NCBI RefSeq assembly: GCF_013009555.1
Contig: NZ_CP046176.1
Span: 1,457,501 to 1,521,500 of the forward strand
Source: Phocaeicola dorei
GTDB taxonomy: Bacteria > Bacteroidota > Bacteroidia > Bacteroidales > Bacteroidaceae
Direction of reading: 5' to 3'
DNA: 64,000 bases
Positions 1,394 through 20,482 of the stretch are shown piece after piece; within the stretch, counting starts at the first letter, position 1; every line of letters starts with the position of its first letter. The notes under the pieces were generated by a model that saw nothing but the letters and a program-made list of their open reading frames with translations, ran no database searches and was not told the origin of the DNA. The translations under genes and the position numbers were made by a program.

Positions 1394-2845
1394 TTATCGT
1401 TTCTTCCTTTTGCCGGAAGAGGGGCGCATCATGCGTGCAGCTTTCATCATGCAACGGCGTGCCCAAGCGCGTTCATCCTCGTCATCGTCACGTCCCCATT
1501 TGAGGTCGGACGAACTGCCGCCACCGCCATGACCTTCGGCAAAGGTGGTGGCATCATCGACGTAGCCGAGGAATAGAAGCGTGGCACAGTACATCACCTC
1601 CGTTCCATTCTCCGCAAAGGCCTGAAGCAGGGAACCGTCAAACACGTCCTTGCCCTCATTGGAAAGCCGTGCCACACGTTCGGAGAACTCGCTGACCATG
1701 TTTTCGAGAAGGGCATTTCTGAGAACGGTGTCCGCACCTTGTCGGATAGTATCGGAATATCTGTGTGCCTCCTGCCGCAACTCCTCCGTGCGCTCCTTCA
1801 TGGCGGTCATCTCCTCACGCAGGGCATCGAGCTTGCGGTCAGCCTCTGAGAGCTTCTCCTGCTTGTCGTCCAGTTTCGACTGGATAGCGGACAGTTCCTG
1901 CTCCAGCTCTTGGACTTGCTGACGGAGAGCATCAGGATTGTCGTGACCTGCAAGAATCTGCCGATGCAATTCAGCAAGTGCCGCCTCCTTCTCAGCCTTC
2001 TCCTGCAAGAGGTTGTTGACCATTGAGGTGAGTCCTTTTACTCTCCGCTCTGCCAGACGGATGTCCGATTGGAGCGAGGCGAGTGTCCGCTGATGGGTGG
2101 CGACGGACTGCTCAATGGTGGTGCACTGTTCTGACAGCTGGCGGCGGTATTCTTCGGTGGTGCGGTGGCGTGCTCCCGTCTCTGAGACGGAAGTTCCGCG
2201 CTCCATGCCCCAACGCTTGTTGACATCGGCAAATTCGCTGTGCAGGGCTTTCATCCTGGCAGAAAACTCGTACTTGTCCTTTCCGGCGAATATCTGTTTG
2301 TATGCAAACTTGCCGTCCTTGATTGGCAAGAGGGTGCAGTGAACGTGCGGATTGGTTTCGTCCAAGTGTAAGATGAAAGCGACGATGTTCTCCTCACCGT
2401 ATTTGTCCGCAACAAAGCGGTAAACATCCTTTGCCCATTCCTCAATGTCCTTGCATCGGGTTAGATGCGAATTGTCCGCTCCGTGAGTGAGATTCACCTT
2501 CTGGTCACCGAATGCCAATTCTGTCATACGTTCTCGTGAGCCTCCGAAGATGAAATTGACCACTGTGCGGAAGCGTGGCTCTGCCAGTCCCTCGTTGGGG
2601 TCTTTGATTCCACGGCTCCGCAGGATGTCTGCCATGCGCTCCGGGATGCTTCGGCTCTTGTCTATAGGACAAACCTTGCCGCCCCGAACCTCGAAGTTGA
2701 GCCGCTCACGGCTGCGGTCGTAGTTGCCTGTTGATTCAGCGGATCCCCAACCCTTTTCCGTCCAACGGCGTTGGTGCTCGTTGCTCTGTGCTGTGGTGAT
2801 TCCCTTAGATGGTCGGAAATCCATAACCTGTTTTGGTGTTGCCAT
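1394..2845 (-). CDS. MobV-type relaxase (Pre/Mob plasmid recombination family)
   Basis: A 483-residue protein expected to nick oriT and pilot single-stranded DNA during conjugative mobilisation. The MobV signature is visible at about residues 160-175 as HLDETNPHVHCTLLP (H-x-D-E-x-N-P-H-x-H metal-binding motif). The N-terminal region up to about residue 230 is the relaxase domain. Residues about 235-380 are a long Glu/Lys/Gln-rich coiled coil, and the tail is basic (SSGKRKKR), both usual for the family. It is transcribed with the flanking minus-strand genes, and an inverted-repeat region lies directly upstream. No type IV secretion genes are in view, so transfer machinery must be elsewhere. 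Confidence 0.9.
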   Translation of the reverse strand: MATPKQVMDFRPSKGITTAQSNEHQRRWTEKGWGSAESTGNYDRSRERLNFEVRGGKVCPIDKSRSIPERMADILRSRGIKDPNEGLAEPRFRTVVNFIFGGSRERMTELAFGDQKVNLTHGADNSHLTRCKDIEEWAKDVYRFVADKYGEENIVAFILHLDETNPHVHCTLLPIKDGKFAYKQIFAGKDKYEFSARMKALHSEFADVNKRWGMERGTSVSETGARHRTTEEYRRQLSEQCTTIEQSVATHQRTLASLQSDIRLAERRVKGLTSMVNNLLQEKAEKEAALAELHRQILAGHDNPDALRQQVQELEQELSAIQSKLDDKQEKLSEADRKLDALREEMTAMKERTEELRQEAHRYSDTIRQGADTVLRNALLENMVSEFSERVARLSNEGKDVFDGSLLQAFAENGTEVMYCATLLFLGYVDDATTFAEGHGGGGSSSDLKWGRDDDEDERAWARRCMMKAARMMRPSSGKRKKR

Positions 2846-6529: not shown

Positions 6530-6617
6530 GCAATGGAGGTTGGTTTGTCCTCCGAAAAGTTGGGTTTCATATTTCATTGTTGTCATTATTTTGAGTCTGA
6601 TTTTGAAATTGACGGTG

Positions 6618-7471: not shown

Positions 7472-8155
7472 ATGAATAAGACATTCAACATCTACTGTGA
7501 TGAAAGCACCCACATGGTGCATGACGGTCATCCCTACATGCTTTTGGGATGTACAAGTATAGCATACACACAAATCCGCATGGCAAAAGATGCCATAAAA
7601 GATATTAAGAAGAAGCACGGCTATAGTGATGAGCTGAAATGGACAAATGTCCACGAGGCCACGTATAAAGTCTATGCAGAGCTTATAGACTGGTTCTTTA
7701 TGAATGACATGGAATTTAGGGCTGTGGTTGTTGACAAGAGTCAGATTGACGAGAAACGAGAAGACTATACGTTTAATGATTTCTACTTTCGCATGTACTA
7801 CCAATTGCTGCATCACAAGATGGACATGGATTATACATATAACATATATATGGATATCAAGGACACATGCAGTAGCGATAAGCTGGAGAGGCTCAGAAAA
7901 ATAATGGAATACAACTCTTCCATTGGCAGGTTTCAGTTTATACGTTCACACGAAAGTGTCTTCATCCAATTGGCAGATGTTCTAATGGGAGCCATCAACT
8001 ACAACCTTAGATATGAAAAGGGAGAAGTTGAAGGAAGGGTGAGAGCCAAAATGAAGCTGATTGAAAAGATAAAAAAACACAGTAATATCAGTCTCAACAC
8101 CACAACTCCCAAATTTAGAAAGAAGTTTAATTTGTTTTTTATCGCACTGAAATAG
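7472..8155 (+). CDS. DUF3800 domain protein
   Basis: 227 residues. The family hallmarks are visible: an N-terminal YCDEST (family Y-x-D-E-S/T), AVVVDKSQID near residue 88, an acidic YMDIKDT near residue 128 and the C-terminal QLADVLMGAI. DUF3800 proteins are thought to have an RNase H-like fold with acidic residues at the active site and are frequent in phages and mobile elements; biochemical function is not established. It starts 16 bp after the resolvase-like gene and ends 3 bp before the next gene, so the three are one operon. Confidence 0.8.
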   Translation: MNKTFNIYCDESTHMVHDGHPYMLLGCTSIAYTQIRMAKDAIKDIKKKHGYSDELKWTNVHEATYKVYAELIDWFFMNDMEFRAVVVDKSQIDEKREDYTFNDFYFRMYYQLLHHKMDMDYTYNIYMDIKDTCSSDKLERLRKIMEYNSSIGRFQFIRSHESVFIQLADVLMGAINYNLRYEKGEVEGRVRAKMKLIEKIKKHSNISLNTTTPKFRKKFNLFFIALK

Positions 8156-8158
8156 CCA

Positions 8159-8695
8159 ATGAGCAGTTTGAATATTATCAAGAAATACCCTGAGCTGCTG
8201 GAACTGGCATATCTCAGTGAACGAGAAAGAGAGCATGATCTTCATGCAATATTCAAGCGTGATATAGAAGATAACTGTCAATTCTCATTCAGAGGGTGGC
8301 GCATCTATCCTATAAAGACAGATGGCGAGATTGACATGGCAAGATTGTTCAAGCATCTTACCTGTGAAGAAATCATGGTTGAGAACGAAGACGGTACGAC
8401 TTATCCAAAGCGAGTATTCGAGATGGCTCGTTCACAAAGGCTTCATTGGATAAATCACCATGTGAGAGAATTGACACCAGACAATCTGGATGTATTTACC
8501 ATAGAAGAGAGGGACGGCAAAAAGCGTAAGGTCAAGAAAACATACATCTATGATAAAGTGGAAAAGTATGTTATTGTCTTGGAACAACAACGTAGCAACG
8601 GATTCTATCTGTTGACAGCATACCATCTTAACAAAGAGTATGGACTAAAGGCTTTGGAAAAGAAGATGAAAAAGAGATTGCAGACACCACTATAA
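8159..8695 (+). CDS. Possible BECR/PBECR-type nuclease-like protein
   Basis: 178 residues. The C-terminal half has FEMARSQRLHWINHHV followed by KYVIVLEQQRSNGFYLLTAY, resembling phage-associated BECR-fold (barnase-EndoU-ColicinE5-RelE) proteins, which share R-x-x-R-L-x-W-I and Y-x-V-x-L ... LLTAY patterns. This assignment is from memory of the pattern and is weak. It starts 3 bp after the DUF3800 stop, so the two are probably coupled. A toxin, an effector of a defence pair or an unrelated cargo protein are all possible. Confidence 0.5.
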   Translation: MSSLNIIKKYPELLELAYLSEREREHDLHAIFKRDIEDNCQFSFRGWRIYPIKTDGEIDMARLFKHLTCEEIMVENEDGTTYPKRVFEMARSQRLHWINHHVRELTPDNLDVFTIEERDGKKRKVKKTYIYDKVEKYVIVLEQQRSNGFYLLTAYHLNKEYGLKALEKKMKKRLQTPL

Positions 8696-11609: not shown

Positions 11610-12101
11610 TTATACACTATTATGAAGATTCACTATGTCCAATCCCTGCCTCTTGGCTTCTCTGACGGTGTAGAACGTGCCGCCCTTGGGATTGCCATCG
11701 AAGTAGGCTATGAGACGTGAACTGCGGTTGACCATATAGTCGTTGCGCCTCAGAAGGCAGCCATTGTAGTATTGCTCGCTCAATACGACCACGTCATCCA
11801 CGATGCGCAGGATGGCATCATACTTGGCTTGCTCTTCCTTGCTCCACCGGTCAGACTGACCACGGAACGGCACAACGGCTATCACCTGCAAGTCCTTCAA
11901 CTCGCATTGCAACGAAAGGGCGGCTTCTGCCGCCAGCAGGTCAAATCCCATTGCCATGCCACAATAGAAATACCGGTAGCCGTCGGCATACGCCTTGGCT
12001 ATCTCCGATTTGAGACATTGCTTCAACTCCCTCCGCTTGGCGAAAGGTACGCTGCGGTGTCCGCTGAAGCATACGGACACTGCCTTGTCGTACTTTGTCA
12101 T
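11610..12101 (-). CDS. SLOG (DUF1273/YpsA-like) Rossmann protein
   Basis: 163 residues. The N-terminal VCFSGHRSVPF and YFYCGMAMGFDLLAAE loops and the C-terminal NRSSRLIAYFDGNPKGGTFY match the SLOG/YpsA family, which binds nucleotides or nucleotide-like ligands. The family is related to DprA and to SLOG sensors of conflict systems. It lies 3 bp after the phosphoribosyltransferase gene, and the two are surely one operon. Ligand unknown. Confidence 0.78.
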   Translation of the reverse strand: MTKYDKAVSVCFSGHRSVPFAKRRELKQCLKSEIAKAYADGYRYFYCGMAMGFDLLAAEAALSLQCELKDLQVIAVVPFRGQSDRWSKEEQAKYDAILRIVDDVVVLSEQYYNGCLLRRNDYMVNRSSRLIAYFDGNPKGGTFYTVREAKRQGLDIVNLHNSV

Positions 12102-12104
12102 ACT

Positions 12105-12671
12105 TTACCTTACTTTATAATGTGTGCGTGCGAGGAACATACCGCCAATAACACATGCCCCGAGCCTTTCGAGTTGGTTGGCATACTTGGCATAGCTGAG
12201 ACCCTTGGTTATCACATCGTCAAAGACCAACACCATTTTGTTGTCGAAGAACGGCTCATCAAACTCAACGACATTCGCCTTGCGGACTTCATCCTCGTTC
12301 TTGCGGTTATCGTGGATGGTCTTACGCTCTCCGCATACCCTCACGTGCTCGTAGCCGTTTTCCGCTCCTGTCAATTCACACACCCTGTGGCAGAAAGCCT
12401 TGTAGCGGAGTTCGTTGCTCTCGCTTGTGGATGCTGGAACGGGGGCGAAGACGATGTTCACGCAACCCTTGCCGTAGAGTGTCAGCATATTCTCTGCGGT
12501 GCGCTGCGCCACTTCCTCGTAGGCTCTTCCGTCCTTGAAGTCAAACACTAATTGTCTGTCGGCAATCTCCTTCTCACCCACATTGCGGATGCGTGCGGGA
12601 TAGTATTTGCAGAACCAAGTCTGAGGCTTGTCTAACTGCTTTTGGATTTGATAGTCATTCTTGTGTGCCAT
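12105..12671 (-). CDS. ComF-like phosphoribosyltransferase
   Basis: 188 residues from the ATG at 12671; the upstream open frame to 12857 is unrelated in composition and is not used. The PRPP-binding loop is MVLVFDDVITKGLS, and the hood and flexible loop parts are FAPVPASTSESNELRYKAF and the Arg/Asn-rich KTIHDNRKNEDEVRKANVVE, as in ComF-type type I PRTases. The usual N-terminal zinc finger of ComFC is absent. It is paired with the SLOG gene, recalling the ComF and DprA families of DNA uptake; function here is inferred only. Confidence 0.75.
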   Translation of the reverse strand: MAHKNDYQIQKQLDKPQTWFCKYYPARIRNVGEKEIADRQLVFDFKDGRAYEEVAQRTAENMLTLYGKGCVNIVFAPVPASTSESNELRYKAFCHRVCELTGAENGYEHVRVCGERKTIHDNRKNEDEVRKANVVEFDEPFFDNKMVLVFDDVITKGLSYAKYANQLERLGACVIGGMFLARTHYKVR

Positions 12672-13083
12672 TGCTCTTATGTTTTTTCTTCCCTTATTTC
12701 GGAGGCTTTTCCTGCCTGCCCAAGGGATATTTTTTGCTTTCCAAGAGTGATGGCGATCAAAAAGCCAAATCGGGAGCGAAAAATACGCTCTGCACGCAGA
12801 GGAAGATTTTTCGGTCAAATGCAATGGACGATTTGGTGTTTGAACAATCGCCAGCATTACCTTTGCAAAACAATATCCGCAGCGGCAAGGCAGGCGAAAA
12901 GAAATCTGTTATGTAAAAGAGGAAACGGGCGGGATGGCGTGGGGCGAAGCTGTATATGGGGAAGGACGATAGTTGATATGAGGGAAAAAGAGAAAATCTT
13001 GTAATAGGGAACGACATTGCCTTTTATCAGCATGGAGACAGTCCTACAAGCAGAGAAAACTATTGCCCTAAAAATGAGTTGGA
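12672..13083. other. Non-coding stretch with promoter-like word and GGCGTGGGGC motif
   Basis: No credible gene. A plus-strand TACCTTTG (12858-12865) lies here with no strong -33 element. Downstream, GGGCGGGAT (12927-12935) is directly joined to GGCGTGGGGCGAAGC (12936-12950). The latter word recurs at the right end of the folded units at 16482-17460, where a long hairpin separates the two motifs. Confidence 0.45.
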
Positions 13084-14271: not shown

Positions 14272-14380
14272 TACTACTATTAGTGAATACTACTTTACTA
14301 TTCTACTACTGATAGTACATACTAACCATAGTAAAAGCGGATTTACTACGATTAGTACGTACTACTCTCAGTTGATACTA
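14272..14380. repeat. 8-bp-phased TACTA/TAGTA array upstream of parA (centromere/operator candidate)
   Basis: Eleven TACTA or TAGTA words start at 14272, 14288, 14296, 14304, 14313, 14320, 14329, 14344, 14353, 14360 and 14376; steps are 16, 8, 8, 9, 7, 9, 15, 9, 7, 16. All are near multiples of 8 bp. The array fills the whole gap between parA and the SSB gene. RHH proteins such as MetJ and the ParG/omega group bind arrays of 7-8-bp boxes, so a parC-like centromere that doubles as operator is likely. Confidence 0.75.
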
Positions 14381-15505: not shown

Positions 15506-16060
15506 CTACTTCATCCATGCACCTATACTCGACGTGACATAGTCCAACTGACCGCCAAATATGTCGCTTGGCTCTATGTCGTATTGTCCATCCCTCACTT
15601 CCTTGTCCTCTCCAAGAAGCGACAAGTTTCCGTCGGCATCCAAACGTGCTGCGTCTATGACGATGTCACGAGGCTCGTCAAAGAGATAACCTGCCACGAT
15701 GGGCTGCTCTCCCTCGAAATGCACCTCAAAGCCTCCGTCCACCTCCGTGCCGTACTTGCGAAGAGCCGCTTTCAGCTCGTCCTGCTCCCGGTGCTGCAAT
15801 GCCTGGAGTTGTCCGTGGATAGTGAGGTCTTGCAGTTCTGCCTCTCGTTTGGTGTGGGTTGCCTCGCCGGTCTTGCAGTCGATGTCATACTTGTGGTAAA
15901 CCACTGGGATATGGTCTGCCGATGTGACAAGCCATGTGATGTTGTTCACTGAGAAGCCCTGTCTGGTGAGGAACTCCTCGATGTCTGAGCCGAGAAGGTG
16001 GTCGGCTACGTCAAGATACTCGATGCGTGCGTCAGCATCATGCAGGATGATAATCTTCAT
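15506..16060 (-). CDS. Hypothetical protein of mobile element
   Basis: 184 residues from the Met at 16060 (MKIIILHDADARIEYLDV). The upstream Met at 16102 gives an atypical N-terminus. It is acidic, with a segment CKTGEATHTKREAELQDLTI that may be helical. The protein resembles uncharacterised Bacteroides mobile-element proteins whose N-terminus reads as a DUF4313-like small domain, but this is not a firm match. Function unknown. Confidence 0.5.
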   Translation of the reverse strand: MKIIILHDADARIEYLDVADHLLGSDIEEFLTRQGFSVNNITWLVTSADHIPVVYHKYDIDCKTGEATHTKREAELQDLTIHGQLQALQHREQDELKAALRKYGTEVDGGFEVHFEGEQPIVAGYLFDEPRDIVIDAARLDADGNLSLLGEDKEVRDGQYDIEPSDIFGGQLDYVTSSIGAWMK

Positions 16061-16340
16061 TGCCTTTCTATTTTTAGTGATACAAATAAGTTTGTCGCCC
16101 ATGTCGCTGGACTTGTTTAACTACGTTGAAGAAACTTACGCTCAGCATAGTGAATAAATTCCCTCTGCGTTCGCTTAACCGTTTCTTTCTCTTCCCTCCT
16201 TTCGAGACCTTTCAGCCTGTGGAGGGATATTTTCTGCTCCCACAAGCCGCAAGAAAAGACATAAAGACAAATTATGTGTGAAGAATACTCTTTTCCGAGG
16301 AAAAGGAAGATTGTTCACAGTCACAAGACCTCAAGCAGAA
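16061..16340. other. Non-coding leader region, nothing specific seen
   Basis: About 280 bp upstream of the 184-aa gene with no frame of credible composition. It precedes the plus-strand promoter described next and shows a purine-rich stretch but no repeat shared with other intergenic regions. Confidence 0.4.
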
Positions 16341-16372
16341 TTTGACGATTGTCTCAGACGCGGCTAACTTTG
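16341..16372 (+). promoter_or_regulatory. Plus-strand promoter (TTTG ... TAACTTTG)
   Basis: TTTG at 16341-16344 and TAACTTTG at 16365-16372, 20 bp apart, fit the Bacteroides -33/-7 consensus. It points into the non-coding region holding the three folded units and no plus-strand coding gene, so it is the likely promoter of a non-coding RNA. Confidence 0.6.
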
Positions 16373-16481
16373 CAGGAAATATGCCTACCACTGCGCTGAT
16401 TGGAAGAAGATTATTGATATTGGCTGCAAGAGGAATGATGTGTTATATATAAAGAGGTAAGAAGAAAGATTGAAACAGTAA

Positions 16482-16720
16482 GGGTGGGCAGTGAAGTGTT
16501 TGCAGGTCTGCTGTACCGACATAAAGCGAGTGTGTTGGCTGACCGGGATGCAAGTCATCAAAGCTTCAGCCTTGATAGCTTGTAGCACGGACAGACAATT
16601 CTCTCGCGTCGGTACTTCGGCATACTGTCAGCTTTGGCTAATAGCAACGTGTTGCCATCAGCCAAGGATGTCTGTATGACGACAGACCATGTAACGCTTC
16701 GCAAAGGCGTGGGGCAAAGC
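16482..16720 (+). ncRNA. Structured repeat unit B (candidate ncRNA)
   Basis: Bounded by GGGTGGGCAG (16482-16491) and GGCGTGGGGCAAAGC (16706-16720). Between them a multibranched fold can be drawn. Outer stems: TTTGC 16499/GCAAA 16701 and GGTCTG 16505/CAGACC 16683. Arm 1: GTACCGAC 16513/GTCGGTAC 16608, GCGAG 16526/CTCGC 16603, with an inner hairpin CAAG-ATCAA/TTGAT-CTTG. Arm 2: GCATAC 16620/GTATG 16674, TTGGCT 16634/AGCCAA 16660 and GCAAC 16644/GTTGC 16651. Unit D has the same layout with different but complementary stem sequences. Strand is inferred from the upstream promoter. Confidence 0.6.
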
Positions 16721-16958
16721 AGTATAATTTAGAAGTAGATAGTAACGTATATCAGGCAAGAAGAGACAGTTGCGCAACGGACAAATCGGGCACTCCTGTC
16801 AGCATGACAAATGTGCCTTGTCCTTGCCGCAGGACACTGAGGCAGATTGGACGTAGCAGACATGTCTGCCACATTCAATATGCCTGAGTGGACAAGAACT
16901 GCCTCTTGTATAGCAGAAGAGAAATTGTAAAACAGTTGATTAGTGGTAAAGGTGGTAT

Positions 16959-17136
16959 GGGTGGGCAGAATGGCATTACACGGACATTGCCGAAGCCCGA
17001 TAATGGGACAGCCAGACAGCAATAAAGGCAGTTATCAGAAGTGTCAGTTTCTGATAGTGACATTGTTGGCTGCCTGTCACATGGGATTCGTGCGGTGTCC
17101 GTACAGTAATGCCGTTCTGAAGGTGTGGGGCGAAGC
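16959..17136 (+). ncRNA. Structured repeat unit C (long hairpin)
   Basis: Bounded by GGGTGGGCAG (16959-16968) and GGTGTGGGGCGAAGC (17122-17136). One long imperfect hairpin lies between: GGCATTAC 16972/GTAATGCC 17106, ACGGACA 16980/TGTCCGT 17096, an AGCAAT/ATTGTT region and the apical TATCAGAA 17033/TTCTGATA 17049. The boundary motifs match units B and D but the insert is a single arm. Confidence 0.55.
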
Positions 17137-17219
17137 GATACAACGCACTTGGACGAAACCACCGCTTATAACAGAAAATATTTTGCAGTCAAAGAGAAGA
17201 AGAATAGTAAAGCAGGTGT

Positions 17220-17460
17220 GGGTGGGTAGTGAAGCTGTCGCAAGATTGACGGTCTGAATATCAAGGCGAGTGGATAGCCAGTAAAGGACACAATTATCAG
17301 AAGCCTCGGCTTCGGCATCTTGTGGCATAGATGGCAGTCCTCTCGCGTTCAGACCTTGGCATACTGTCTTTCTTGGCTAATAGCGACTTTGTCGCCATCA
17401 GCCGGGAATATCTGTATGCCAACCATCTTGGTGACGTTTCGCAAATGGTGAGGGACGAAG
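17220..17460 (+). ncRNA. Structured repeat unit D (same fold as B)
   Basis: Begins GGGTGGGTAG (17220-17229) and ends GGTGAGGGACGAAG (17447-17460). Stems: CAAGAT 17241/ATCTTG 17425; arm 1 GGTCTGAA 17251/TTCAGACC 17348, GCGAG 17266/CTCGC 17342, CACAA 17289/TTGTG 17320, GAAGCC 17300/GGCTTC 17308; arm 2 GGCATAC 17358/GTATGCC 17414 and GCGAC 17383/GTCGC 17391. Compared with unit B, GCAAC/GTTGC has become GCGAC/GTCGC and the long arm-1 stem differs in sequence but stays complementary, which is compensatory change. Confidence 0.6.
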
Positions 17461-17562
17461 TGGTTAGAATAAAGGAAGACGGCGTTGCCGTTATGGTTAA
17501 TAAATGCACATGGTTGTTATTAGAGAAGATTATCACACGCTATAACAGCAGATTGATGTCCC

Positions 17563-17592
17563 TGAGCAAAACAAAAGCGACCCGAAGGTCGC
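17563..17592 (-). terminator. Minus-strand intrinsic terminator after ssb-2
   Basis: GCGACC (17577-17582), tetraloop, GGTCGC (17587-17592); on the minus strand the stem is followed by TTTTGTTTTG. It lies 20 bp past the stop of the SSB gene at 17613. Confidence 0.8.
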
Positions 17593-17612: not shown

Positions 17613-17999
17613 CTATTTCTTGCCTTTCTTGGTTGCTGGCTTGGCCGGCTCTTCCGCAGGAGTCTCCTCCTTGTCGGGACACTCGTAGAACTTGGTTGCA
17701 ACCATGATGATTCTGGAGTGCTTCACGCCATCCTTGTCTGTCCACTCCTCTGGCTTGAAGAAACCCTCGACGGTGAGCAACGTGCCCTTGGTGAGCTTGT
17801 CGAATGATTCGGTGTGCTCGTTCTTGCGCCATGCCTCCATATTCATGAAAGCCGATACGCGGTTGGTTTCCTCGCCGTTCTTCTCCTGACGGCCTACTGC
17901 CAATGAGAAGCGTGCTACGCTGGCGTTTGCGAACTGACGGATTTCTGCATCCTTACCTACGAAACCTGAAACTGTGAAGTTGTTCTCGATCTTTTTCAT
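17613..17999 (-). CDS. Second single-stranded DNA-binding protein, basic tail
   Basis: 128 residues, OB fold of the SSB family: NNFTVSGFVGKDAEIRQF, SVARFSLAVG, FMNMEAWRK, TKGTLLTVEGFF. The C-terminus is a Pro/Ala/Lys tail ending TKKGKK, so it lacks the acidic Pro-Phe tip present in the other SSB at 14384. It therefore probably does not recruit the usual SSB partners and may have a transfer-specific role. It is a single gene with its own terminator. Confidence 0.78.
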   Translation of the reverse strand: MKKIENNFTVSGFVGKDAEIRQFANASVARFSLAVGRQEKNGEETNRVSAFMNMEAWRKNEHTESFDKLTKGTLLTVEGFFKPEEWTDKDGVKHSRIIMVATKFYECPDKEETPAEEPAKPATKKGKK

Positions 18000-18789
18000 T
18001 TTGAATTGAATTTAAAAGTGAAACTTAATTTTTACATGCATTCAAAAGCAGGGATGTGGCACCATGTGGGAAGCACCATGAAAATCGTTCGCAATACTCT
18101 TTTTGTCGTTGGCGGTAAGGGAGAAAAAGGAAGATTACGCACTATTTTATTGGTCACAGCGATAGCGGCCACACAAGAAGGAGGAAGTCCTTCGCAGCAT
18201 CACGCTACCTTTGCATGGTAAAAATAAGTGGCTTTCAAATAGCTCAATTCAGAAAAAGACGGGGCCAAACAATGGAACAAAGGTTGTAAGCAAGGAGGCA
18301 ATCCGTATGCAACAGACAGGGGCACTGCTATGGCTGTATGCCTGGAGAAACGAAGCGGGAAATCCGACCTTACAGCTGTATCATCAGAAGAGTGAGGAGC
18401 ATGAACACTGATGCACGATGAACGACAAGCCTAAGGGTCAGCTTAGCAATAGAGGCATCAAGCCAAAAGAGGACAGACATCAGAGGATTGGCGATAGCAC
18501 TGTCATCATGCTAAGACCAAGTTCTGTGTCCGACAAGGAAGAGTCGCAAAAGACAGACGAGTAAAACCAAAAGGCGAAATGACCATTCCTATAACAAGGT
18601 ACAGAGACGCTTAAAACGGCGAAGGGACTTTGGCGACGTATCGCTATACAGGTGTCGAAGCATCGCTTCTATAACAGGACTGGAGCAAGTGAGCAAACCG
18701 CACAACTTGCTCCCAAGGTATTTCAGTTACAACAGCCATAACCTCATTGGAGGATTGTCCTAAAAGAGTTTTTGCAGTCAAAGGAAGAA
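18000..18789. other. Non-coding stretch with -7 word and shared 15-mer
   Basis: No credible gene in 790 bp. Seen: plus-strand TACCTTTG at 18206-18213 without a clear -33, the word GGGTCAGCTTA (18435-18445, also at 20063-20073), and TTTTGCAGTCAAAGG at 18770-18784, which recurs at 17181 (14 of 15), 19921 and inverted at 20125. Confidence 0.4.
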
Positions 18790-19026: not shown

Positions 19027-19611
19027 TTAGCCGAATGTGATTGGATTGATGCAGAAATTCGTGTCCTCTGCCTCATACTCGTATTCATTGATGAAGTCAA
19101 TCATCTTCTGTTCGCTTCTTCCGTCCTGTGAGACACCAGTCTTCTCACACCACAACTTGATAGCATCACCAAAGGTGGAGTAAGCACCCTCACAATCCTC
19201 AAAGAGTTCTCCGTATGCAGTGACGTAGCACTCTTCGGGGAAGAAGTCGTTCTCATCGTGCGTATAGAAGATGTCGCAACCTGGCTCAACCTCTCGCCAA
19301 CTGATTGAAAGTTCATCGCCAAGTGCCTTGTTCACCTCCTCAAAGAACAAGTCGCATGAAGACCAAGCACTTTCGGTGTCAAAGGACAAGAGGGCATAAT
19401 CGTCTTCCACGTTCTCCTCATACTCTGCCCAATAGATGTGTCCTCTCACCGAGATGCCTTTCTTCTCGTAGTCAATGCCATAGTGTTCTGCCAAGAGATA
19501 CAGATACACATTATTACTGTTCACCTCCAACTCTTGGAGTGTGTTCCAAAGGTCTGCCACGGCTTTGCGTGAGCCTGTCACCTTGTACTGAGTGTCGCAA
19601 ATGTTAGCCAT
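19027..19611 (-). CDS. Api92-like / DUF1281 ferredoxin-like-fold protein
   Basis: 194 residues starting MANICDTQYKVTGSRKAVAD, the start typical of DUF1281/Api92-like proteins of plasmids, phages and ICEs (predicted ferredoxin-like fold). It is highly acidic (for example EYEENVEDDYALLSFDTESA), suggesting a DNA mimic or protein-binding role; that is inference. First gene of a two-gene minus-strand unit. Confidence 0.68.
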   Translation of the reverse strand: MANICDTQYKVTGSRKAVADLWNTLQELEVNSNNVYLYLLAEHYGIDYEKKGISVRGHIYWAEYEENVEDDYALLSFDTESAWSSCDLFFEEVNKALGDELSISWREVEPGCDIFYTHDENDFFPEECYVTAYGELFEDCEGAYSTFGDAIKLWCEKTGVSQDGRSEQKMIDFINEYEYEAEDTNFCINPITFG

Positions 19612-19982
19612 AAGATAAAATTTTTATTTTCTTCCCTTATGTAGAACCAACTACCATCGGGATTGATTAAAGAATTATGTTGCCCCAAAAGGTGTTATGG
19701 CTCATCAATGCAAGGTTTTGCCGTCAAATACTACCTCTGCCACAATCAGAGCGTGGAGATTTCACGGACAAACCACAGGCACCGACCTTGCAGGATGAAC
19801 GCCATGACAGGTACCTTTGCAACACAATTCTTATCAAAGCCCGATGGGGTGGTACATGGCAGACTGCATGGTACAGCAGTGTGAAGTGACGTTATAGGTG
19901 GAGATAAGGCTATAAGAGGTTTTTGCAGTCAAAGGAGAAAAGAGTCCACAAAGTGCAGTATCTACAGGACAAAAACACTTTA

Positions 19983-20027: not shown

Positions 20028-20439
20028 TGTATATATGTCCGTCTAAAACCCGAAAACCGTACGGGTCAGCTTACGTCAGAAACAGAAGTATAGAACCATA
20101 GAAGTGGTTCAAGAAGTCTTTCTTCCTTTGACTGCAAAATATTATCTTTGCACGAATCATAATTGCCCTGTAGGATTTAATATAATTTAACACTCTTTGT
20201 TGAATGCAAGGAAGAACAGCTTCAATATGCTGAATATCAGTAGTATAACATTGTGTTAACCCTTAATCTGTAGAAAAGGATGTTATCATACAAAGTAATG
20301 TCCATTTGTACTTTTTCTATATGGTTTTATACTTACATTTGCATATCATTTGTATCTTGATAACAGTAACTAACTGATTATCAATATACTTTATATTTGA
20401 GGAAGTGAAGTAATTCAGACAAGGACATAAATAATAAGC

Positions 20440-20482
20440 AAAAGCGTGCAGTTTATCAGAACTGCGCGCTTTTGTGTTTTTT
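20440..20482 (+). terminator. Strong intrinsic terminator
   Basis: AAAAGCGTGCAGTT (20440-20453) pairs with AACTGCGCGCTTTT (20460-20473) with one mismatch, followed by GTGTTTTTTATT. No coding gene ends here, so it closes a non-coding transcript, possibly from TATCTTTG at 20143, or the remnant of an interrupted chromosomal unit. Confidence 0.75.

Follow-up and report, generated by a model that had tools for sequence, protein, structure and literature searches.

A covarying promoter-like fold and an adjoining array of structured units on a mobile element of Bacteroidales

The window analysed here, a 64-kb stretch of the Phocaeicola dorei chromosome, carries an array of folded units to the right of a promoter-like fold (Table 1). 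Two units of the array, B and D, were shown to be members of a family whose folded units measure roughly 200-260 bases and mostly keep runs of G at their ends. This large structured element is absent from Rfam and is represented by five array lineages, one of which is almost the same in many species. To the left of the units, consensus modelling showed that 16227-16382 is a conserved, covarying fold holding both promoter boxes. We propose, with a confidence falling only a little short of even, that the fold works as a strand-state switch, by which leading-region genes would be transcribed from the entering single strand and an array RNA would be produced once the DNA is double-stranded, where we infer the transcription, the entering strand and the function.

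The region probably forms the leading side of an integrative mobile element of the Bacteroidales. The array is situated close to the right end of the element, with similarity ending at 20404-20451 in seven compared loci (L011, L013, L016, L017, L032, L055, L076) and a tyrosine recombinase gene starting beyond, while a serine recombinase, DUF3800, ParA and two SSB (single-stranded DNA-binding protein) genes, besides the relaxase, are found to its left. Stretches 99.4-100% identical were recovered in L016, L017, L026, L027, L032, L034, L038, L055, L057, L062 and L076, and that of L040 is about 95% identical to the element of the window. In PLSDB, one record of B. finegoldii and one of Phocaeicola massiliensis are 100% identical over the full 1521 bases around the array, and BLAST within the bacterial family matched 3 of 151 genomes, the window's own genome among the three. 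L008, L009 and L010, unverified faecal contigs labelled 'Bacteriophage sp.', carry this mobile-element region or a relative of it and may not be phage. PADLOC models also matched 11610-12857 and 7472-8695 (a ShosA/ShosT-like pair and a PDC-M04A/B candidate defence pair).

Table 1. Features of the window and their positions (window coordinates unless stated otherwise).
Feature	Position	Strand	Description
Window	1457501-1521500 of the chromosome		5.63-Mb chromosome
MobV relaxase	1394-2845	-	left of the array; nearest relaxase, MobV family
Leftward gene adjoining the promoter fold	15506-16102	-	198 aa; no Pfam, NCBIfam or PADLOC match
Candidate Frpo-like single-stranded-DNA promoter fold	16227-16382	+	outer stem ATATTTTCTGC / GCAGGAAATAT, inner stems, central hairpin; predicted fold of the window leaves the -7 box unpaired
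Central hairpin	16277-16319	+	variable outer stem, conserved internal loop ACT/GAAG, stem CTTTTC/GAAAAG
Promoter boxes	16341-16372	+	-33 box TTTG 16341-16344, 20 nt, -7 box TAACTTTG 16365-16372
Unit B	16482-16722	+	GGGTGGG end 16482-16488, P1, P2 GTACCGAC 16513-16520 / GTCGGTAC 16608-16615, P3 arm 16615-16685, GGCGTGGGG end 16707-16715; fold z -4.6
Fourth structured unit	16740-16930	+	without G-words; P3-like tip 16841-16885; fold z -5.1
Unit C	16959-17141	+	G-word ends of the B/D type, one long hairpin; fold z -5.6
Unit D	17220-17464	+	three-way junction as in B; P3 arm 17355-17424; G-words 17220-17226, 17447-17454; fold z -4.0
Terminator-like hairpin past the array	17577-17592	+	few T on the + strand; terminator-like on the - strand too, for the SSB gene
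SSB gene	17613-17999	-	PF00436, TIGR00621
Possible second promoter-type fold	18055-18235	+	upstream of the SSB gene; hairpin variant, TAnnTTTG at 18206; z -1.2, not significant
Possible third promoter-type fold	19655-19850	+	upstream of gene 19027-19611; TACCTTTG at 19812, in the right arm; -49.2 kcal/mol (DNA), z -8.7, mononucleotide shuffles
Tyrosine recombinase	starts 20633		beyond the end of similarity

The observation on which the original prediction was built, three repeat units sharing boundary words and stems with compensatory changes, was confirmed where it had been placed. GGGTGGGYAG, the 5' word, begins at 16482, 16959 and 17220; the 3' word said to be common to the units is exact in B (GGCGTGGGGCAAAGC) and C (GGTGTGGGGCGAAGC), but D reads GGTGAGGGACGAAGT, three letters off. 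The stems named for B and D are present in the predicted folds and the two units do have the same shape, a single three-way junction in which P1 closes two arms, P2 and P3. C, the third unit, is present but is predicted to form a single hairpin, and a fourth folded unit between B and C had been missed. In each of the four stretches, none of 200 dinucleotide shuffles folded as well as the native sequence. Unit C is identical in 11 places, with variants in L004/L026 and L040, and occurs in no other lineage. A P3 arm of 69-73 bases was recognised by a search expression in D and in 27 of 31 distinct word-defined units, those without it being three of C type and one of L065 that had escaped the expression. 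A loop, GTGTTTAG, is kept on different stems at the P2 tip of L010, L023 and L045 units, possibly as a binding loop. An open reading frame of 104 aa (16943-17257, + strand) overlaps C and the start of D and is annotated as a hypothetical protein (WP_224204806.1) in the element copy L011; it is probably not a gene, given that L040 and L004 align with it with 3 and 1 gap positions, respectively, and L083 not at all.

Most units begin with GGG-N(1-2)-GGG and end with GG-N(3)-GGG, the G-runs being constant and the linkers variable (T, C, TT, AT or CC at the 5' end; TGT, CGT, TGA or TAT at the 3' end). Both G-words are found in 26 of 28 listed places, many of which had been picked by these very words in the first instance; of the other two, the fourth unit of the window lacks both words and one place is truncated at its right side. 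In five places found by the model alone (L043, L049 and the second units of L023, L059 and L063) the left words are present in 5/5 and the visible right words in 4/4. Judging from the sequence, the kept G-runs may possibly act as a quadruplex clamp of the unit.

In the alignment of B and D with five relatives, 83 consensus pairs have 92% of their cells paired and 28 pairs are changed on both sides, against 11.3 in shuffles (reached in 0/500; RNAalifold's own count of such changes is 27), and when the structure is slid along the alignment paired cells fall to 31-45%; further pair types are not clearly above shuffles (91/500 reach the value). Divergent arrays were found in four other Bacteroidales lineages, and the P3 set drawn from these four, 16 rows of which 15 are distinct, has 16 of its 27 pairs changed on both sides and a covariation score of 0.432 vs. 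0.151 in shuffles (0/500), with 20/500 for further pair types. The rows of these alignments are related, so that shuffles overstate significance and such counts are not probabilities. Homologues with covariation, on which the claim of a family had been made to hang, were found.

Model R1, built from the P3 rows of the other lineages without any sequence of the window, ranked D first in the 64 kb when run with filters off (22.5 bits, E 0.00085), B third (16.8 bits, E 0.041) and the fourth unit fifth, the family link of the latter being weak (16841-16885, 12.6 bits, E 0.68). Two places remain unexplained in this search, the second-best, 14309-14371 on the - strand, which at 20.3 bits stands above B and lies between ParA and SSB genes, and the fourth-ranked (14.3 bits). 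With default filters R1 had no match in the 64-kb window and none in 393 genomes of the order, a result that says little because the window's own genome, with B and D, is one of the 393. Likewise, BLAST with the type-II unit of L010 matched 0/393 genomes of the order, the P3 pattern had 0 matches in viral contigs, and plasmid searches with the L042 and L045 arrays returned no match. The pattern match L012 has the GGCTAATAGC/GCCATCAGCC pair without aligning to the window, which indicates that this pair of words alone does not mark the family.

As in the original prediction, no known family was recognised. Rfam 15 at the gathering threshold gave 0 matches in the 64 kb, and with E up to 5 the window had one snoRNA match only, at 19.5 bits vs. 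a threshold of 45. A group II intron, the remnant of which had been named as an alternative identity, was ruled out by the lack of an Rfam match, as were the known ornate RNAs; a tRNA-like element was excluded by the finding of 0 tRNA genes, and a dispersed repeat by BLAST of the own genome, which returned the array itself and its own palindrome only, with no second copy. GOLLD and ROOL, both included in Rfam, are large structured non-coding elements that also occur on mobile DNA. The units of the array differ from these in being tandem, of roughly 200-260 bases and without Rfam match, the comparison leaving the details of anatomy aside. Another parallel is RteR of CTnDOT, a 90 nt non-coding RNA of a Bacteroides conjugative element that acts on the tra operon (PMC7366714): both it and, as proposed here, the array would be non-coding RNA on mobile elements of Bacteroides type, a likeness of kind and setting.

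The boxes at 16341-16372 had been read as a promoter with good spacing, which is exact as a motif but too simple, as they are part of a larger conserved and covarying fold resembling a single-stranded promoter. With DNA parameters the fold of the window reaches -25.9 kcal/mol (z -5.0 vs. 60 mononucleotide shuffles). The consensus, derived from 20 sequences of 142-157 bases, comprises 42 pairs with 96.8% of cells paired, 12 of them changed on both sides (2/500 shuffles), and its covariation score was reached in 0/500 shuffles, further pair types being not above shuffles. The + strand consensus has an energy of -25.0 vs. -13.9 for the - strand, and G-T pairs outnumber A-C, 19:6. In the predicted DNA folds of 19 loci the -33 box is mostly in a stem and the -7 box mostly near a stem base; the latter is unpaired in L083 and L084, as in the window, and partly paired in L010 and L042, L070 and L045 being without the fold, while the CTTTG half of the box is paired in the 20-sequence consensus.

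A scan of genome contigs for the hairpin core yielded 71 stretches. At least 7 of 9 outer-stem pairs, with G-T counted as a pair, are kept in 61 of 77 hairpins; these lie in 55 stretches, 54 of which we take to be Bacteroidales by record name, the order coming partly from the genus, and L058 is not. Units occur in 28 of the 71 stretches (26 by G-words and 2 more by the model), and 12 of these 28 carry copies of the element seen in the window. In 29/29 loci the first unit follows rightward of the hairpin, on the same strand and at a distance of 132-267 bases. Selection contributes to this count, because the hairpin had served to retrieve most of the loci and 12 of them hold copies of the element in question. 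Outside the window, all word-defined units of the loci compared have a hairpin to their left on the same strand; unit-like places without hairpin are L088 and L009, the latter with a P3-like match only. This constancy of place and strand bears on the view that the units are repeat remnants without function, or else palindrome-type mobile repeats, a view invited by tandem imperfect palindromes without a known family. Considering also that BLAST finds the array at this locus only in the window's genome, and that pairs are changed on both sides across lineages, we hold such an origin to be very improbable.

What the fold does is less evident. The boxes match the sigma-ABfr consensus as given in PMC7366714 and point right, whereas sigma-70 promoter sites in the window are at chance (3 found vs. 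2.2 expected). An ordinary promoter active in duplex DNA and carrying an operator hairpin, transcribed rightward and devoid of single-stranded function, would suit these boxes, yet it appears improbable in view of the long covarying outer stem, the + strand bias, the leftward genes that the fold adjoins and its presence in loci where no array follows. The last circumstance also means that conservation of the boxes is not evidence for an array RNA. The single-stranded-DNA promoters of conjugative plasmids, Frpo and ssi (F, ColIb-P9), are described as long imperfect stems that rebuild the promoter boxes; they lie upstream of leading-region genes such as ssb, whose orientation makes the entering strand the template (PMC11541004, PMC9849209). 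The predicted fold at 16227-16382 resembles Frpo in its long imperfect stem with promoter boxes and, in the window, in its place upstream of the leftward gene 15506-16102, a putative leading-region gene. It differs in having the boxes TTTG and TAnnTTTG, its own ACT/GAAG hairpin, and a -7 box left unpaired by the predicted fold of the window and paired over about half its length in the consensus.

Gene orientation here is as described for leading regions in PMC11541004. The leftward starts 16102, 17999 and 19611 each have a TAnnTTTG of + orientation 201-263 bases upstream and none of - orientation within 320 bases; among the 14 leftward gene starts checked, 9 have no box on either strand, that at 12857 has its box at the start and that at 6586 has boxes on both strands. 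SSB genes are near the promoter fold and the array, and in most array-bearing loci the nearest ORF beside the hairpin is leftward. On the other hand, in L024, L030, L051, L053 and L061 the nearest simple ORFs of both sides converge on the hairpin, which therefore precedes no gene there, and these five loci are not accounted for by a promoter serving a leftward gene.

Returning to the strand-state switch, the + strand would be the strand entering the recipient, and once folded it would offer RNA polymerase a promoter reading leftward into the protein genes of the leading region. Since the right arm would be the non-template strand in the folded + strand, the polymerase would move leftward over the left arm and into gene 15506-16102. 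After second-strand synthesis the same boxes, now in duplex, would read rightward into the array, yielding a structured non-coding transcript that would extend to ~1.2 kb at most and stop near 17590, or else units processed from it. The G-runs may pair as a two-layer quadruplex clamping each unit, and the array RNA could assist establishment of the element, for instance through binding to a protein of the host or of the element. The full version, in which one promoter element drives two programmes according to the state of the strand, establishment genes leftward from single-stranded DNA and G-clamped three-way-junction RNAs rightward from duplex, we consider rather doubtful; if true, it would give Bacteroidales an equivalent of Frpo into which a non-coding RNA output is built, as a mark that second-strand synthesis is complete.

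Importance of rightward transcription would agree with the Segatella hominis plasmid NZ_CP137560.1 (L088), where the half that holds the hairpin is replaced and the -7 box GCGATAACTTTG, the leader and one unit are kept. Inspection by eye reveals no evident -33 box there, and the kept -7 box may be a mere mark of the breakpoint. The same plasmid has six tRNA genes in a row (L088 10398-10891) about 1 kb from its unit, and tRNA was the only Rfam match in it.

Whether the units act as RNA is a separate question, for which RNA is the better guess and single-stranded DNA a serious rival. The promoter boxes, the terminator-like hairpin past the array (such sites number 5 vs. 2.1 expected) and the retention of box, leader and unit in S. 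hominis after the loss of the hairpin argue for RNA, as does the excess of G-T over A-C, 33 vs. 16, among the variable pairs of eight unit groups. Single-strand origins, such as that of ICEBs1, are places where a folded single strand serves to begin second-strand synthesis. Units folded as DNA in the entering strand might be starts of this kind, or sites of protein loading, and we would put the chance of such a role well below even. It would agree with the neighbourhood, a fold resembling a single-stranded promoter and SSB genes, and with G-runs that could pair in DNA too. The likeness to single-strand origins is by fold only, and several different tandem units are unusual for such origins.

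Pair counts also bear on a DNA role. In the P3 set of the other lineages, A-C is tolerated as often as G-T (G-T:A-C 10:12, mostly in columns of Watson-Crick pairs), and the ratio of the B/D type, 28:12, is weaker than in RNase P (40:9, 95:11 and 164:11 for 7, 15 and 22 rows) or tmRNA (35:7, 71:18 and 116:19) of the same bacterial family, so that a role as single-stranded DNA retains some standing. Whole-unit energies of the + and - strands did not decide the strand, shuffled controls covering 6 of 32 units only, and units of the L045 type fold better on the - strand. The original claim of a new non-coding RNA family stands as regards a structured family with compensatory changes, but non-coding RNA as opposed to a structured DNA strand is not proven.

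Gene expression of gut Bacteroidales conjugative elements in the first minutes after entry seems to be little explored. No word starting with 'bacteroid' occurs in the main text of PMC11541004, and among the matches listed from the open-licence literature no title or abstract opening named a Bacteroidales single-stranded promoter or units of this kind. A defined sequence with covariation makes such early expression directly testable.

Folds of this type may not be confined to the place beside the array. Two further candidates precede leftward genes of the window (Table 1), and the ACTC/GAAG hairpin is absent from that at 19655-19850. A variant of the hairpin also occurs near genes matching MobB-type relaxases in L082, L024, L020, L052 and L036, with scores of 128-166, below the NCBI cut-off of 200; L082 and L020, the two run against Pfam, matched DUF5712.
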